From positions 1 through 31,764 of the IMG/VR virus record IMGVR_UViG_3300034524_000023: a DNA stretch of 31,764 bases; one strand, written 5' to 3'. The DNA comes from a virus. Shown one piece after another: positions 16,514 through 27,401 of this stretch. Positions within the stretch are counted from its first letter, which is position 1. Every line of letters begins with the position of its first letter. The position numbers and the translations under genes are program-made. The notes beneath the pieces were generated by a model that had not been told where the DNA came from, searched no databases, and was given only the letters and a program-made list of their open reading frames with translations.

Positions 16514-17713
16514 ATGAGCTTTATGGATCTATTTAGAAGAGCCAGAGCAGAGCCAAAAGAGAAAAGGGATGCATTAGCAATATTTTTAACCTCGGATGAC
16601 TATAGTTCTTGGGTAGCGGAAGGTTACACTAGGCTATCAGATAACCCGGAAGTCAAAACAGCGGTTCACAAGATAGCTGAATTGATTTCAACTATGACAA
16701 TACACTTGATGCAGGACACTGAGGATGGTGCAAAAAGGATAAAGAATGAGTTGTCCAGGAAAATAGACATCAAACCTTATAAATACATGACAAGAAAGAA
16801 CTGGATGTATAACATTGTTTACACGATGCTACTCGCTGGTGATGGAAACGCAATTGTTTATCCTGAAATAGAGGGTGGATTAATAAAGGGACTGAAACCA
16901 TTAGAACCTGAGAAGATATCGATTCAAGCATCGGTAGATGAATATAAGATTATATACAACCAGGTCAGAACATATGCATATGATGAGGTGCTGCACTTTA
17001 TGATCAACCCGGACCCGAATAAGCCATATAAGGGAACCGGATACAAAGTTGTTTTAAGTGATCTGACAACCAACCTAAAGCAAGCATCAACCACTAAAAA
17101 GAATTTCATGACTTCGAAGTGGCGGCCACCTTTAATAATTTCAGTAGATGGTCTTATAGATGATATGACTTATGAAGATGGCAGAGACAAAATTCTAAGC
17201 AAATATGTATCCTCGGTTGATGAAGGAAAACCTTGGGTTATTCCAAATGACATGATAAAGGTTGAGCAAGTAAAACCACTCAGTTTAAGTGATTTAGCAA
17301 TAAATGAAACAGTACAACTTGATAAAAAAACAGTAGCAGGAATCTTAGGAGTGCCTGCTTTTTTATTGGGAGTGGGAGATTTCAATAAAGATGAGTACAA
17401 TACATTCATCAATTCCACAATACTTACTATTGCTAAGGGGATAGAACAAGAACTGACTGGAAAACTTCTTTATTCACCTGATTTGTACTTCAAATTGAAT
17501 CCAAGGTCACTATATTCATACGACCTTAAGGAGCTGGCGGATGTTGGTGGAAGCTTATATGTTAGAGGTGTAATGCTTGGTAATGAAGTCAGAGACTGGA
17601 TAGGGTTGACACCACTTGAGGGACTGTCTGAAAGGGTTATTCTAGAAAACTACATACCTGCAGGCATGATTGGTGATCAAAAGAAATTAGTTCAAGGAGG
17701 TGAAGAGAATTGA
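16514..17713 (+). CDS. Portal protein, HK97 type
   Basis: A 399-residue protein forming the dodecameric DNA channel. The N-terminal [20 protein letters not shown] segment, [13 protein letters not shown], the [10 protein letters not shown] stretch and [13 protein letters not shown] near residue 277 are typical of HK97-family portals. It follows terL after 4 bases with TAGGAGAG upstream, and its stop overlaps the protease start. Confidence 0.95.
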
Positions 17714-18279
17714 AAAACAGAAGGTTTAAAACCATATCAAGTGAATTTAGGGCAGAGGAAACCGATGGAGATCTTTTCATTGAGGGATATTTCTCTGTGT
17801 TCAACAAAGAAACTGAGCTTTGGCCAGGTGCGTTTGAATCAGTATCACCAAATGCTTTTAATGAGACACTTTCCAATGATATCAGAGCACTGACTAATCA
17901 TGACACCAGGTTGGTTCTTGGGAGAAACAAATCAGGCACGCTGGAACTTAAAACAGACGGTAGAGGATTATGGGGAAGAATAAAAATAAATTCAAAAGAT
18001 GTTGATGCATTGAACCTTTATGAGAGAGTCAAGAGGGGTGATGTTGATCAGTGTTCTTTTGGGTTTAACATATTAGAGGAATCCACAGATTTCAGAGAAG
18101 ATGGAACTATTAAATGGACATTAGAAAGAATTGATCTACATGAAGTTTCTGTATGCACATTCCCAGCTTATGATGATACCAGTGTTCAAGCAAGGGAGAA
18201 AGACCTAGAGAAACTGACAGATAAAAAAAGAGAAGCAAAGAAACATGAATTGAAAGTGAGGTTGAAAAAATGGCATTAA
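17710..18279 (+). CDS. HK97-type prohead protease
   Basis: A 189-residue serine protease that removes the scaffold-like N-terminus of the capsid protein during maturation. [23 protein letters not shown] with H64, and [10 protein letters not shown] with S116 mark the fold and catalytic pair. The start is TTG, 7 bases after AGGAGGTGA; its TGA is shared with the portal frame. The gene overlaps the capsid gene by 10 bases. Confidence 0.94.
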
Positions 18280-19673
18280 GACAATTAATTTTAAACAAGA
18301 AGCTTGAGAAGAAACGTTCTGAACTTCAGGAGTTGATTCAAAAAGATACTGAGATTCAAGAAAGAAGTACTCAAGCCGAAGCAGCACTGGAAGAAGCTCG
18401 GACAGATGAAGAAATAAAAGCTGTAGAGGATGAGATTGCAGAAGTTGAAAGAATGCAAGAAGAGAACGATGGAGCAAAATCAAAACTAGAAACAGAGATG
18501 CAAGAGATTGAAGATGAGCTAGAGGAACTTAAAAGAAATGAACCACCAAAGCCTAATGAATCTGGCGAAAGAAGCAAGGCACAAACAATTGAATTTGATG
18601 GAAAGAGAGGTAATACAGGCATGTTAAAAAGAGGATTCTTCAAAGAAATGAATTTAGAATCAAGAGATGCATTTATGCAAAGAGAAGAAGTAAAAGAGTT
18701 TTTAGTTAGGGCAAGAAATTTGATAGGTCAAAAAAGAGCAGTTACAGGTGGAGATTTAGTCATACCGGATGTAATGCTTGAACTATTGAGAGACAATTTA
18801 CACAGGTATTCAAAACTGCTTAAATATTTCACAGTGAAGTCTTTAAAAGGAACTTCTAGACAAAACGTAACAGGTGCGATACCAGAAGGTATTTGGACTG
18901 AAGCAGTTGGATCATTAAATGAATTAGCATTAAGCTTTAGCCAAATAGAGCTTGATGGATATAAAGTAGGTGGATTTGTACCAGTTGCAAATTCTATCTT
19001 GGAAGATTCAGACGTTAATCTTGCAAGTGAAATATTAGATGTACTTGGACAAGCCATAGGTTATGCAGTAGATAAAGCTGGACTATTCGGAACTGGAACA
19101 AAAATGCCAGTTGGTATTGCTACTAGACTAGCTGAAACTGCGGAACCTGCATATTGGGGAACTAATCAGGCAGCATGGACAGACCTACATATTTCAAACA
19201 TAGTGAAGTTTGACGGAGCATCTTTGACTGGTGCAGCATTCTTTAAGGCATTGATCCTTAAATGTGCAGTAGCAAAAGCAAACTATTCAAGTGGAGTTAA
19301 GTTCTGGGCAATGAACTCTACTACTTATGCTACTATAATGGCTAATGCAATAGAATTTAATGCAGCAGGAGCATTGGTTTCAGCAGTAAATAATCAAATG
19401 CCAGTAATCGGTGGAGATATTGTTATTCTAGACTTCATATCTGACAATGATATCATTGGTGGGTTTGGGTCATTATACCTATTGGCAGAAAGAGCGGGAG
19501 CACAACTTGCTGCATCTGAGCATGTTAAGTTCACTGAAGATCAAACAGTATTCAAAGGCACTGCTAGATATGATGGGAAACCAGTATTCGGAGAAGGCTT
19601 TGTTGCAATTAATATAGCCAATGCTGCGGTAACAACAACCAAGAACTTTGCTGCGGATACAGTAAACCCCTAG
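18270..19673 (+). CDS. Major capsid protein, HK97 fold (unshifted form)
   Basis: A 467-residue precursor. Residues 1-95 are a long coiled coil (scaffolding delta domain), removed by the upstream protease, probably near residue 110. The rest is the HK97 fold: AVTGGDLVIPDVM, GAIPEGIWTEAVG, the A-domain IGYAVDKAGLFGTGTKMPVGI and a C-terminal P-domain strand. The frame ends at TAG 19671-19673, immediately after a canonical slippery heptamer, so a fraction of ribosomes should continue in the -1 frame to 19948, giving a 559-residue form. Both forms would assemble in one shell. Confidence 0.95.
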   Translation: MALRQLILNKKLEKKRSELQELIQKDTEIQERSTQAEAALEEARTDEEIKAVEDEIAEVERMQEENDGAKSKLETEMQEIEDELEELKRNEPPKPNESGERSKAQTIEFDGKRGNTGMLKRGFFKEMNLESRDAFMQREEVKEFLVRARNLIGQKRAVTGGDLVIPDVMLELLRDNLHRYSKLLKYFTVKSLKGTSRQNVTGAIPEGIWTEAVGSLNELALSFSQIELDGYKVGGFVPVANSILEDSDVNLASEILDVLGQAIGYAVDKAGLFGTGTKMPVGIATRLAETAEPAYWGTNQAAWTDLHISNIVKFDGASLTGAAFFKALILKCAVAKANYSSGVKFWAMNSTTYATIMANAIEFNAAGALVSAVNNQMPVIGGDIVILDFISDNDIIGGFGSLYLLAERAGAQLAASEHVKFTEDQTVFKGTARYDGKPVFGEGFVAINIANAAVTTTKNFAADTVNP

Positions 19674-19706
19674 ATGCGGCCCTATCTTCGCTGGCGATAG
19701 GGTCGC
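19664..19706 (+). promoter_or_regulatory. -1 programmed ribosomal frameshift signal in the capsid gene
   Basis: A canonical X_XXY_YYZ heptamer A_AAC_CCC lies at 19664-19670, directly before the zero-frame TAG. After a 5-base spacer comes an 11-bp hairpin (19676-19686 with 19696-19706, one G-U pair, 9-base loop), close to the ribosome entry position for stimulators. After slippage the ribosome reads CTA GAT GCG and continues for 92 codons. Confidence 0.9.
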
Positions 19707-19948
19707 TTGAACTGACACCATCATTTGATCAGTCAGTTTACAGCTATACAGCACCTACAACCAACGCTACAAATACAATAACAGCTGTAGTAGCTAAAGT
19801 GGGAGCTGTAATCTCTATTCTTGTAAATGATGTTGCCCATACAAATGGTCAGGCAGCTACATGGAATGAAGGAGAAAATACAGTTGCAATTACTGTAACT
19901 TATGGAACTACAGTTAAGACTTACACAGTTGTTGTTACTAAATCATGA
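19670..19948 (+). CDS. Cadherin-like domain added to the capsid protein by -1 frameshift
   Basis: The -1 frame encodes 92 residues after the slip and has no usable start of its own. The sequence LSSLAIGSLELTPSFDQSVY, then SYTAPTTNATNTITAVVA, WNEGENTVAITV and a final KTYTVVVTKS strand follows the cadherin-like beta-sandwich pattern (PF12733-type) seen on bacterial surface proteins and phage virions. Fused to the capsid C-terminus it should project from the shell, perhaps binding host glycans or mucus. It would be present only on frameshifted subunits. Confidence 0.88.
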   Translation, partial: LDAALSSLAIGSLELTPSFDQSVYSYTAPTTNATNTITAVVAKVGAVISILVNDVAHTNGQAATWNEGENTVAITVTYGTTVKTYTVVVTKS

Positions 19949-21294: not shown

Positions 21295-22149
21295 ATGAGC
21301 AGGAACAAAGTTAAATATGGTTTCAAAAACGTTCATGTTGCATTTATGAACGATGATACAGTACCTTCATATGATGCTCCTATAGCTGTACCAGGAGCAG
21401 TAAGTTTTGCACCTGGTCCTGAGGGCGATAAAACAACTTTTTACGCAGACGACACTAAATATTTTATCATCACGAGCAACAACGGCTATGCGGGCGATTT
21501 GGTTATGGCAAACGTGCCGGATGATATTCTGGCAGAAATGTTTGGATGGGAAATTGACAACAATGGCATGCTGGTAGAGGTATCAGATGCACAGCCTAAG
21601 TCTTTTGCTCTGATGGGCGAAGTTAAGGGCGATAAAAAAAGCAGAAGGTTTGTGTACTACAACTGCCAAGCATCAAGACCGACAAACGAAAAGAACACCA
21701 AGGGCGAGAGTGTAGAGCCTACTACAGACACTATGACTATGGATGTTTCCCCTATCGTAATAGGAGGAAAAAGCATCGTCAAGGGAGACTTGGAACTGTC
21801 CGACACAAACGCGACAGCATTTAACGAGTTCTTTGATGCTGTTTTGCTTCCGGAGTTTGGAACTATCTCCATCACTGCCCAACCCCAAAACGTATCAGTT
21901 ACAGCTGGGGCCATCACTGAATATTTAAGTGTTGTAGCTACTCATAGCACTGGCGGTGAACTAGGATATCAGTGGTATCAGAATGACCCAAGCGTACCAG
22001 GTGGGTCTGTAGCTATAACTGGGGCGACAAGTGATGAGTTTGCGATACCTTCCACATTGACTGCAGGCGTTTACTACTATTACGTAGCTGTATCGGCAAA
22101 CGGTGCTCCCTCAGTGACCTCTGACGTTGCAACCGTCACTGTTTCGTAG
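21295..22149 (+). CDS. Major tail tube protein with C-terminal Ig-like domain
   Basis: A 284-residue protein. Residues 1-185 are the tube domain (GFKNVHVAFMNDD, FAPGPEGDKTTFYADD, RFVYYNCQASRP, MDVSPIVIGGKSIVKGDLE). Residues about 192-284 are an Ig-like domain (SITAQPQNVSVTAGAITEYL, LGYQWYQNDP, AGVYYYYVAVSANG) that should decorate the outside of the tail, as in several siphoviruses. Here the domain is fused in frame, unlike in the capsid. AGGAGG precedes the ATG. Confidence 0.93.
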   Translation: MSRNKVKYGFKNVHVAFMNDDTVPSYDAPIAVPGAVSFAPGPEGDKTTFYADDTKYFIITSNNGYAGDLVMANVPDDILAEMFGWEIDNNGMLVEVSDAQPKSFALMGEVKGDKKSRRFVYYNCQASRPTNEKNTKGESVEPTTDTMTMDVSPIVIGGKSIVKGDLELSDTNATAFNEFFDAVLLPEFGTISITAQPQNVSVTAGAITEYLSVVATHSTGGELGYQWYQNDPSVPGGSVAITGATSDEFAIPSTLTAGVYYYYVAVSANGAPSVTSDVATVTVS

Positions 22150-22157
22150 GTGGCAAA

Positions 22158-22505
22158 ATGAAAACAATGAAAATCGGGAATAGAGAAATGAACATCGAGG
22201 GGTCAGCATTGACCCCGTTTTTTTATAAAAAAGAATTTAAACAGTCAATGAGTGGAGATCTTGTTAAGATGCAGGACATTGGCGATGACTTATCTAAACT
22301 TGACGATGTAAACATTTTGCAGATGGCATGGGCCTTGGAAAAGACGGCCCTTGTTGATACAGGTAAATCAATAAAAGGCTTTGAGTCTTGGCTGAAAGAC
22401 CTTGGAAAAGTGGACATAACAGAATTCGCATCGGAAGTCATGGAGGAAGTCATGGATGCCACATTTCACGACACCATCAGAGAAGGAGCCGAAGAAGGAA
22501 GTTGA
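22158..22505 (+). CDS. Tail assembly chaperone (G-like)
   Basis: A 115-residue acidic helical protein in the conserved position between tail tube and tape measure. Its 3' end overlaps the next frame by 50 bases. In most siphoviruses the pair is joined by ribosomal frameshifting to make the long chaperone GT, which coats the tape measure. GTGGCAAA upstream gives only a weak ribosome binding site. Confidence 0.83.
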   Translation: MKTMKIGNREMNIEGSALTPFFYKKEFKQSMSGDLVKMQDIGDDLSKLDDVNILQMAWALEKTALVDTGKSIKGFESWLKDLGKVDITEFASEVMEEVMDATFHDTIREGAEEGS

Positions 22506-22689
22506 CGAGGATTTCAACTTTGAATTAAGCGTAATCTTGATGGCGAAAAAAGTGGGACTGACGTTTTCAGAGCTAAAAAATTTCAGCATGCAAGAGTTTA
22601 TAGATTTTGTAGACATGTGGGTAGGCGATGACGATAAAGAAAAAGAAGCTAGTCAAGAAGACATAGACTACTTCTACAGCCATATGTAA
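22456..22689 (+). CDS. Tail assembly chaperone (T-like frame)
   Basis: The frame is +1 (equivalently -2) relative to the upstream chaperone and open from 22420. It encodes about 77 residues, KEVDEDFNFELSVILMAKKVGLTFSELKNFSM and on, the typical T domain that binds the tape measure. It could be reached by +1 slippage, for instance at UUU_C (22464-22467), where tRNA-Phe can re-pair. Alternatively it starts at ATG 22456, which has GGAGG 9 bases upstream. Confidence 0.78.
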   Translation: MPHFTTPSEKEPKKEVDEDFNFELSVILMAKKVGLTFSELKNFSMQEFIDFVDMWVGDDDKEKEASQEDIDYFYSHM

Positions 22690-24965: not shown

Positions 24966-26464
24966 GAAGTGTGGACCCTTCTCTTTTAACTAAACTGGGA
25001 TCACAGGAGCAGACCATATCGAACAGCGCAGATCCTAAAATGTTTGTGGCTGTTGCAAGGGCGAGGAACACGGTAGTAGACAGTACCTATTGGACCGTTG
25101 AAACGATCCGTGAGGGCGTAAGCCTTGGGGACGTGTCAGTGGCAGCAAGAAGATTCAAAGTCACTGGTCCACCAAACCGAATTTATGAGATCCATGTAGA
25201 CGGTGGAGTCGTTGGGACTTCCATCAGGGAGTACCCGGACAAACTAAAAGACGGATTCATTGATCAATTTTCATTGGGTAGCGGTTCTGCGGTTGCGATC
25301 GCTTTTGATGGCAGGTGGGAGCGACACCGGGAAAGCATGAGACTCATAACAGAAGAAGAACCATGGATCGCATGGGTGGATTCTTCAGGCGTACTGTGGA
25401 CCCAGTTGTGGGACGATGCGACTACAAAGTTACAACTGGACACCAGCGTTGCAAAGGTCAGAGCACTTCGAGCATGGAAGAATATCAACTACGCTGACAG
25501 GGACCAGGGCATCGTTGTAGGTTATATCAAGACGGACGGTTCATTGTGGTATAGGAACTATTGCCAGCAAGCGGATACTACATATATTTGGGAGAGCGCA
25601 AAAGAAGTCACAGACTTTACTGGGACATCGGCGGTCAACTTGAACCTATTTATCACGAACGACTATCGAATGGGTTTTGCTGTTGAGGATAACCTGGGGC
25701 AGATCCATTGGCTTATCACGGATCGCAACTGGTCAGGTATGGCAATCATGCCGGATATCATAGCAACATCCTTGACGGACTTGTCAGTCGATTTGATACC
25801 GGTCGCTTATAAAGACGGTTACGACAACGAAATCATAGCCGGGTCCATAACAGACCTTATCATGGACTTGTACTGGGCAGGAGAAACATTGCCAGTCAAA
25901 GCCGAGAACATAGCAACAACAGACACGGTGACAGCCGAAGCGGTTGGAACAGGGGACGGTTCAGAGACAGTCTTTTCGTTGTTGCATGAACCATTGACGC
26001 AGACCATCTATGTGGATGCTGTCGAGGTGACAAACTACACGGTAAACGGAGAAGACATCACCTTTGCCGCGGCGCCGACTGGGGCAATCACGGCCGACTA
26101 CACTTGGGCGAACTGGGGAAAACGAATCAAGATCACTATGGATCACGGAGTCACGGATGTCACAGGCACTCATTCAGCTTTTGCCGTAGAGGATTCAGCA
26201 TCGACACCGTTCTATCCGACAGCAATCGCAGATGGAGAAGCCGGAGCAAATACACCGTCCACCTTTGACGGTTCGGACGAGTTTATACTGACCGTTGGAG
26301 ATTTTAACAATGCAACGAACCCGTTGACCGTTACATTTACGACACCAGGACCTAAAGGAGAAGCAGGGCAGGCAATAGCTTCTTTTGAAATTGAATTTAC
26401 AGCTACAAATCTGAAGCCAATTGCAGTTGACCCACCGGAAGTGGAGGCGATTTGGAATGAGTAA
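24962..26464 (+). CDS. Modular tail/adhesin protein
   Basis: A 500-residue virion protein. Residues 100-270 contain propeller-like repeats with Trp in DSSGVLWTQLW, KTDGSLWYRNY and NLGQIHWLITD, suggesting a carbohydrate-binding blade structure. Near 270-310 is a TDLSVDLIPVAYKDGYDNE segment that recurs in the next gene, and near 328-385 a GDGSETVF...YTVNGEDITFAAAPTG beta module that recurs in the gene at 27419. It probably belongs to the tail-tip adhesion apparatus. Overlaps upstream by 4 bases. Confidence 0.78.
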   Translation: MRSVDPSLLTKLGSQEQTISNSADPKMFVAVARARNTVVDSTYWTVETIREGVSLGDVSVAARRFKVTGPPNRIYEIHVDGGVVGTSIREYPDKLKDGFIDQFSLGSGSAVAIAFDGRWERHRESMRLITEEEPWIAWVDSSGVLWTQLWDDATTKLQLDTSVAKVRALRAWKNINYADRDQGIVVGYIKTDGSLWYRNYCQQADTTYIWESAKEVTDFTGTSAVNLNLFITNDYRMGFAVEDNLGQIHWLITDRNWSGMAIMPDIIATSLTDLSVDLIPVAYKDGYDNEIIAGSITDLIMDLYWAGETLPVKAENIATTDTVTAEAVGTGDGSETVFSLLHEPLTQTIYVDAVEVTNYTVNGEDITFAAAPTGAITADYTWANWGKRIKITMDHGVTDVTGTHSAFAVEDSASTPFYPTAIADGEAGANTPSTFDGSDEFILTVGDFNNATNPLTVTFTTPGPKGEAGQAIASFEIEFTATNLKPIAVDPPEVEAIWNE

Positions 26465-27401
26465 AGCGGAAGGAAAAAATATAGCGATAAAGTTTACAGA
26501 ACCTTTGGTCGGGGCAGAAGCGACAGAGCATTTTAGAGCAGGAGAATCATACTTGCCGGTCGGAACCGTAACAGCAAGTAGCCAATATTCAAGCTATGCG
26601 CCAACAAGAGCCTTCGATGGAAGCGCTTCATACTATTGGCGAGCGTCCACATATCCATGCTGGATTCAAATCGAACTTGCCGAAGCAGTTGCGATTGCCG
26701 GTTTTAGGTGGGACACGCAAACAACAAGTTACAGACCTAAAGATTTTACAGTACAAGGAAGCAATAATGGAACGGATTGGACCACAATTTATAGTGGGCA
26801 AAGTCCGGCTGAATATTACTGGAAAGAATTTACTTGGGATATAACAAACGATGCTTACAAGTTTTACAGGTGGGACATTTCAACGCTGTGGAGTTCAAGA
26901 ATTCAATTGTACGGAATTGAACTTTTTGCAGTTGAGTCTTACTTTACAAACGGAAATGAAACAGCCTTTGAAGTCAAGGGCAATGTGCCGGATTATGTCG
27001 AATTTCCAAGTGAAGAACTTGGGCCATTGACCGAAAAGATATTTATAGTTGATAACGTGATTCCGCATCCAACAGAATCAAGTACGATTTTATTGACAAT
27101 GAAAGACGTGAATGAATTTAAAAACGTAGACGGGAATTTGTCAGTTTCCTATAATGCATCACTTGGAGACTTGGCAGGACTTGGTGGAGCGGTATCAAGT
27201 TTCACAGAAGTGTTCACGCCAACTAATTTAGTAAGGATACCAAATCCGTTTACAGCAGAAACTTTGGATGTCAGTGTAACCGATTTGGATATTGATTTGA
27301 TTCAAATTTACTACAAAGATGGCTATAAAGCAGAAACGATTGATGTTAGTATAACGGATTTTAGTGTCGATTTAATAAATATCGGAGACTTAGACCCATA
27401 A
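26457..27401 (+). CDS. Tail protein with F5/8 type C (discoidin) domain
   Basis: A 314-residue protein. Residues about 32-170 form an F5/8 type C/discoidin module (SSYAPTRAFDGSASYYWRAS, WIQIELAEAVAIAGFRWDT, FTVQGSNNGTDWTTIYSG, ending IQLYGIELFAV), a galactose-binding-like fold. The rest is beta-rich and ends with two copies of a DVS(V/I)TDxxxDLI motif separated by YYKDGYKAETI. It probably binds host surface glycans. ATG at 26457 has GGAGG 9 bases upstream; an earlier start at 26421 lies inside the previous gene. Confidence 0.88.
   Translation: MSKAEGKNIAIKFTEPLVGAEATEHFRAGESYLPVGTVTASSQYSSYAPTRAFDGSASYYWRASTYPCWIQIELAEAVAIAGFRWDTQTTSYRPKDFTVQGSNNGTDWTTIYSGQSPAEYYWKEFTWDITNDAYKFYRWDISTLWSSRIQLYGIELFAVESYFTNGNETAFEVKGNVPDYVEFPSEELGPLTEKIFIVDNVIPHPTESSTILLTMKDVNEFKNVDGNLSVSYNASLGDLAGLGGAVSSFTEVFTPTNLVRIPNPFTAETLDVSVTDLDIDLIQIYYKDGYKAETIDVSITDFSVDLINIGDLDP

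Follow-up and report, generated by a model that had tools for sequence, protein, structure and literature searches.

Several phages extend a capsid protein by frameshifting. The shift is -1 in A2, T3, A118 and A500 and +1 in Listeria PSA (PMC5009743), and Ig-like extensions added through frameshifting have been described for many phages, T3 included (PMC5009743, PMC9022992). The -1 frameshift in the major head protein of A2 was reported by Garcia et al. 2004, as cited in PMC5009743. In the SPP1 tail, a +1 shift adds an FN3 domain to a minority of the subunits (gp17.1/gp17.1*, about 3:1; PMC8718954, PMC9022992). Ig-like domains added to virions by frameshifting are thus already known, and the kind of capsid extension considered here has precedents in A2, T3 and A118.

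We analyzed a viral record of 31,764 bases from IMG/VR, here called the window in its entirety, in which the gene for the major capsid protein is followed by a -1 frame encoding a cadherin-like domain. As in A2 and T3, the zero frame encodes the major capsid protein and the extension is a predicted Ig-like beta-sandwich. The locus resembles that of Lactobacillus phage A2 in having a -1 capsid extension at the stop codon that consists of an Ig-like domain of ~85–90 residues. However, the capsid gene in the A2 DNA (L217) ends in CCA AAA GCG TAA, and the Ig-like domain in its -1 frame is Big_2-like by eye, whereas that of the window matches PF12733. T3 gene 10, T7 10A/10B and Listeria A118/A500 likewise use a -1 shift at the end of the capsid gene to make a minor extended capsid protein (PMC5009743), but they have Podovirus or other capsid families and their extensions are not cadherin-like. 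The -1 extension of A118 (L218) resembles a HeH/Rho_N tail, as do those of two relatives of the window capsid (L048, L057). We know of no report, for T3, T7, A118 or A500, of an in-frame sister that differs by one base.

Bacillus phage SPP1 also uses frameshifting to place an Ig-fold domain on a minority of a repeated virion subunit, but there the shift is +1, the subunit forms the tail tube and the domain is FN3, compared with a -1 shift, the capsid and a cadherin-like domain in the window. In Listeria phage PSA the capsid is extended by a frameshift at a proline CCC codon (PMC5009743), a codon shared with the window. However, the PSA shift is +1 with a pseudoknot, and a PSA-type slip at CCC_TAG was rejected for the window: there is no long open +1 frame after CCC, as this frame (AGA TGC GGC CCT ATC TTC GCT GGC GAT AGG GTC GCT TGA) shuts after 12 codons. 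An earlier sequence-only reading of the locus had described capsid frameshifting as occurring in a few Gram-positive phages, A2 and PSA among them. A2 is indeed a -1 case, but PSA is +1 and the class is broader, since it includes T3. Our search of the open-licence literature returned nothing relevant on cadherin-like domains on phage capsids.

Genomic context

The window phage is of the temperate siphophage type. Its gene order is tyrosine integrase (at the left end), large terminase, portal, protease, capsid, connectors, tail and M15 peptidase, with the terminase and portal assigned by gene order and size. The major tail protein (21295-22149, phrog_88) is itself fused in frame to a C-terminal Ig/PKD-like domain, so that head and tail alike may bear beta-sandwich domains in this phage. 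Two overlapping ORFs (22158-22505 and 22456-22689) lie between the tail-tube and tape-measure genes, the position occupied by the G/GT tail chaperone in lambda. The second has a separate ATG and is in frame +1 (or -2) with respect to the first, and the PHROG matches of both are to families of unknown function only. A tail-region protein (26421-27401) contains an F5/8 type C (discoidin, galactose-binding-like) domain (E 2e-11) and is possibly another surface-glycan binder.

The end of the capsid gene

The features of the locus are as follows.

17710-18279, immediately 5' of the capsid gene: head maturation protease gene (PHROG profile match)
18270-19673, + strand: major capsid protein gene of the HK97-fold type, zero frame, C-terminus ...VNP-stop (PF05065, PHROG 10)
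19664-19670, + strand: putative slippery heptamer A_AAC_CCC, the last two capsid codons (sequence; relatives compared with controls)
19671-19673, + strand: zero-frame stop TAG directly after the heptamer (sequence; near or immediate stop also in relatives)
19676-19706, + strand: putative stimulatory hairpin inside the first codons of the domain, 11-bp stem and 9-nt loop (folding, compensatory changes, covariance model)
19671-19948, + strand: -1 frame extension, 92 codons and a stop, predicted cadherin-like beta-sandwich (PF12733, structural model, dN/dS)

The capsid gene matches Phage_capsid in Pfam (PF05065, E 5e-33) and the major head protein family PHROG 10. Its final codons are GTA (19662-64) AAC CCC TAG (19671-73), and A_AAC_CCC has the in-frame X_XXY_YYZ form of a -1 frameshift signal. 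The heptamer AAACCCCTAG occurs once only in the whole window, compared with an expectation of 0.05. Among the window's genes there are 9292 in-frame codon pairs, of which 65 have the X_XXY_YYZ pattern, and two of these 65 are within ~4 codons of a stop; the one at the capsid end has by far the stronger downstream structure. To our knowledge, AAACCCC is not counted among the experimentally strongest bacterial slip sites.

The heptamer is followed by a 5-nt spacer, TAGAT (19671-75), and an 11-bp stem in which GCGGCCCTATC (19676-86) pairs with GATAGGGTCGC (19696-706) with a single G-U pair (G19679-U19703). This agrees with the stable structure about 5–9 nt downstream, kept by compensatory changes, that belongs to a frameshift signal. 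The hairpin has a minimum free energy of -19.6 kcal/mol (z -2.55), and equally good folds were found in 4 of 200 shuffles. An intrinsic terminator was rejected as a reading of the hairpin, since there is no T-run and a terminator scan was silent there.

The open -1 frame spans 19613-19948 between two stops and closes with the TGA at 19946-19948. Read from the heptamer it encodes KP and then 92 codons, the first of which is CTA, starting at 19670. No ATG, GTG or TTG lies upstream of the domain in this frame of the window, and the earliest GTG is mid-domain. The elements that the sequence-only reading had picked out, the heptamer before the capsid stop, the spacer of 5 bases, the hairpin with one G-U pair and a start-less frame of 92 codons with a cadherin-like domain, are all borne out. 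By themselves the heptamer and stem are suggestive. The window statistics for both are not decisive alone, and we therefore examined relatives; with the comparative data, the two elements are well beyond chance.

The extension domain

The -1 frame matches the Pfam family Cadherin-like (PF12733) with an E-value of 6.8e-8 and a score of 33.3 bits, compared with a gathering cut-off of 24.2, over positions 3-88 of the 89 in the profile. The C-terminal columns 666-740 of the PHROG 10 major head protein profile also match the domain, and such capsid fusions are thus already present in public profiles. The AlphaFold2 model (12-sequence alignment, pLDDT 92.5) is an Ig-like beta-sandwich. Among PDB structures it is matched best by a domain from a Bifidobacterium blood-group galactosidase (E 1e-4, TMq 0.80), and its matches to Ig, FN3 and lambda gpV C-domain structures are distant with weak E-values. 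The domain is probably a decoration of the shell for surface adhesion or binding.

The dN/dS ratio is 0.05–0.27 in the -1 frames past the stem for the cadherin-type pairs listed, and one near-copy pair shows zero nonsynonymous changes. Together with the PF12733 match, these values indicate that the -1 frame is a selected coding sequence. It is under purifying selection, which strongly argues against decay or a chance open frame.

Distribution of the domain and its junctions

At 52 loci (47 distinct after corrections) the domain is encoded in frame -1 relative to an upstream ORF, and at 65 distinct junctions it is fused in frame to capsids or tail proteins. Two loci with AAACCCT and a stop, at which the -1 frame happens to be open upstream (L153, L158), were counted as frameshift loci. 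Three in which an ATG at the capsid stop starts a long -1 ORF (L051, L054, L056) were not; a coupled separate gene applies to these three and was rejected for the window. A search of plasmids gave no matches.

The ORF upstream of the -1 domain nearly always encodes a capsid, of one of several families. It matches PF05065 in 33 of the 40 scanned, and others are major head proteins of phrog_10, phrog_544 or phrog_422; the upstream ORFs of L133 (phrog_3099) and L169 (no match) are unassigned. In a tail-tube-like cluster resembling the tail-tube protein of the window, the domain is in frame in 11 of 11 cases, within a limited sampling. The bacterial contigs with the domain are from Bacillota, mostly Clostridia (Flavonifractor, Ruminococcus, Oscillospiraceae, Desulfosporosinus), and frameshift copies are found on four of them (L202, L205, L207, L208). 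Two capsids (L018, L111) have one in-frame extension, behind which the -1 frame encodes an additional cadherin-like domain.

A canonical heptamer is found in the final codons of 32 of the 47 frameshift loci, compared with none of 45 non-frameshift capsid ends and one of the 65 in-frame fusions. The most frequent junction is A_AAC_CCT/CCC/CCG with an immediate stop, and an immediate or near-immediate zero-frame stop recurs among the frameshift relatives. Both heptamers (AAATTTT, AAACCCT, GGGGGGT, AAAAAAC) and spacers differ among dozens of contigs. The sequence-only reading had proposed that A_AAC_CCC with an immediate stop, combined with a cadherin-like domain, may be a new arrangement. The slip site and stop do not set the window apart, being the commonest form in its relatives, but the cadherin-like version is undescribed as far as our searches show. 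What looks new is this version with a putative RNA stimulator that lies within the codons of the domain itself.

Fifteen of the 47 frameshift loci have no canonical X_XXY_YYZ (e.g. A_ACC_CCA_TAA, GGGGGAA). For this part of the family the textbook heptamer does not fit, and the slip would take place on one tRNA or otherwise. Junctions of the form A_ACC_CCA_TAA or G_GAC_CCN are found in eleven loci (L148, L151, L170-L173 and L192; L164, L176, L200 and L205). The first codon there is unable to re-pair while the second would shift from CCN to CCC, which suggests slippage of a single proline tRNA.

Conservation of the hairpin

The stem has a fixed position within the coding sequence of the domain, at codons 5-15 counted from the heptamer. 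In the 11-pair register, with all distinct copies considered and none excluded, frameshift copies form 8.6 pairs and in-frame copies 4.7 (Mann-Whitney p 4e-13). We shuffled synonymous codons by exchanging them between sequences within each codon column, which leaves the proteins unchanged. The observed pairing of the frameshift loci was reached in 0 of 2000 shuffles, whereas the in-frame value was matched by shuffles.

An alignment of 39 frameshift loci, from which those with weak or shifted stems were left out (L084, L147, L169, L177, L185, L207), has 84.6% of its cells paired compared with 34–44% in slid registers, and a covariation of 0.345 compared with 0.122 when shuffled; the cells are not independent, since the sequences share kinship. 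Six stem pairs in this alignment are altered on both sides, and pair 17-39 is found as C-G, A-U and G-C (13/12/11). The 40 in-frame copies have 46.6% of cells paired, compared with 47.2% when shuffled, which is chance level. A covariance model detects the held-out frameshift locus L185, whose stem is displaced by one codon, with an E-value of 3e-13, and the best in-frame copy of the domain with 0.09. RNAalifold alone recovers the 5 strongest pairs only, and in L084 an alternative stem, GCCAATAG...CTATTGGC, is possible by eye.

From these comparisons, compensatory changes appear to preserve the hairpin only in loci that have the domain in the -1 frame. A comparison of homologues had been put forward as a check on the locus, with loss of heptamer and stem alongside a decaying -1 frame as the adverse outcome. 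Instead, the homologues again have heptamer, spacer and stem, with compensatory changes, and their -1 frame is under purifying selection.

A one-base difference between the two states

The closest relative of the window is L096 (domain 70%; capsid segment 77% over 122 residues). Its domain is fused in frame, reading ...DIANPSDAHLSALTIG, compared with ...DTVNP-stop / PLDAALSSLAIG in the window. In the alignment of the junction DNA there is homology on both sides and a lone one-base gap exactly at the slip site. All four frameshift sequences have the gap (window, L149, L002, L082), and the in-frame sequences L096, L136 and L098 are one base longer. A single one-base gap at a homologous junction indicates that the frame state changed through a one-base indel, in one direction or the other, and that the hairpin was gained or lost along with it. 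The best domain tree, built on few columns, requires at least 11 frame switches.

These observations lead to a broader proposal, for and against which we see evenly balanced odds. The domain would carry its own stimulator, the hairpin in codons 5-15 (the first beta-strand), with pairing kept only in the -1 context, and the stimulator would hence move with the domain between capsid families. The slip site would arise at the capsid's own end, and one-base indels would toggle between full and partial decoration.

Other extensions on related capsids

We fetched 80 capsid relatives from viral contigs and inspected those with a readable 3' end. In many, the last two codons form a slip heptamer with a long -1 frame behind it, and the -1 frames behind sister capsids encode unrelated domains. 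The cadherin-like extension is found in the window, L002, L082, L083, L149 and others. In L004-L006 the -1 frame encodes repeats like the C-terminal ones of chitobiase/hexosaminidase, and A_AAC_CCT is one codon ahead of the stop. A -1 domain of ~126 residues without a Pfam match is found in L030, L049, L059, L065, L068 and L070-L076, where the slip sequence is mostly A_AAT_TTA, otherwise A_AAC_CCT, with a stem of the GTCTCA/TGAGAC type. This second domain class has a dN/dS of 0.07–0.17 and corresponds to PHROG 31690, in which it is entered as a separate 'unknown' protein. Short Rho_N-like or Thr/Lys-rich -1 tails occur in L048, L057, L039 and L052, and the remaining relatives have a C-terminal extension in frame or none.

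Extension states change at least 21 times on a tree of 70 capsids. The capsids of L030 and L039/L052 are near-identical (branches 0.003–0.035) while their -1 extensions, behind A_AAC_CCY and a stop, differ, an apparent recent swap of a frameshift-encoded tail. The plain capsid end is usually ...[DST]AN-x-stop with A-AAY codons (GCA AAC/AAT), so that an A_AAY_YYZ heptamer would be a short mutational step away.

Proposed mechanism and alternatives

We interpret the 3' end of this HK97-fold major capsid gene as a cassette for programmed -1 ribosomal frameshifting, with a probability of roughly 0.92 on the sequence evidence. Most ribosomes would read AAC CCC TAG and terminate, producing the plain capsid protein. 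The 11-bp hairpin, which begins 5 nt after the heptamer, and the arrival of the stop codon in the A site would delay a ribosome, whose tRNAs on A_AAC_CCC could then re-pair one base back (AAA CCC), through tandem or P-site -1 slippage. Shifted ribosomes would continue with CTA GAT GCG... and add 92 residues, nearly all of them the cadherin-like Ig-type beta-sandwich. The minor fused subunits would co-assemble, putting the domain on a fraction of the shell subunits, and the shell would be a mosaic with its decoration density set by the shift rate. We infer that the shift occurs, that its product enters the virion and that the domain binds; how often the shift happens, the ratio of the two forms in virions and the display of the domain on the outside are predicted by analogy with SPP1 and with frameshift-added Ig-like domains in general.

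A base lost from the CCCC run through sequencing or assembly error would split a true in-frame fusion borne by all subunits. The window is a metagenomic-type viral record and in-frame fusions one base different exist at the same junction (L096, L136, L098), as such an error would predict. However, the same split recurs on dozens of independent contigs with varied heptamers and spacers, and heptamer and hairpin are both in the split copies, including the window, and neither in the in-frame ones, which makes error highly improbable. The -1 frame might instead be a dead remnant of a once-fused domain, with hairpin and heptamer coincidental, since one-base indels at the capsid/domain junction evidently occurred. 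We regard this as very improbable too, given a dN/dS of 0.05–0.27 downstream of the stem, frames that are open throughout, compensatory stem changes confined to -1 loci and a degree of pairing that synonymous shuffling failed to reproduce.

Other routes to the extension are transcriptional slippage in A/C runs, or a small separate gene with a non-standard start or termination-reinitiation. The heptamer region does have runs of 3–4 identical bases, which are short for polymerase slippage. A TTG or ATG lies within the first 20 codons of the -1 frame in 18 of the 47 relatives, and the stop overlaps TAGATG. However, the other 29 have no ATG, GTG or TTG in those codons, the window has none before the domain, and neither route explains the selection on heptamer and stem; we consider both unlikely. 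Reinitiation at the ATG of TAGATG was rejected, since this codon is in frame 0 and yields MRPYLRWR-stop (8 residues), not the -1 frame.

Implications for capsid decoration

Whether frameshifting is a by-product of where a domain lands or a selected control of dosage has been an open question, and a suggestion related in a review is that the frame of added domains reflects chance (PMC5009743). Related capsids that carry the same domain, some in frame and others in the -1 frame, with RNA pairing kept only in the latter, provide a matched natural control. This comparative evidence argues that partial decoration of the shell is selected, and a comparison of a fully decorated phage with its partly decorated sister could test selected dosage. 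The findings also suggest that the true C-terminal extension is missing from the annotation of many metagenomic capsid genes.
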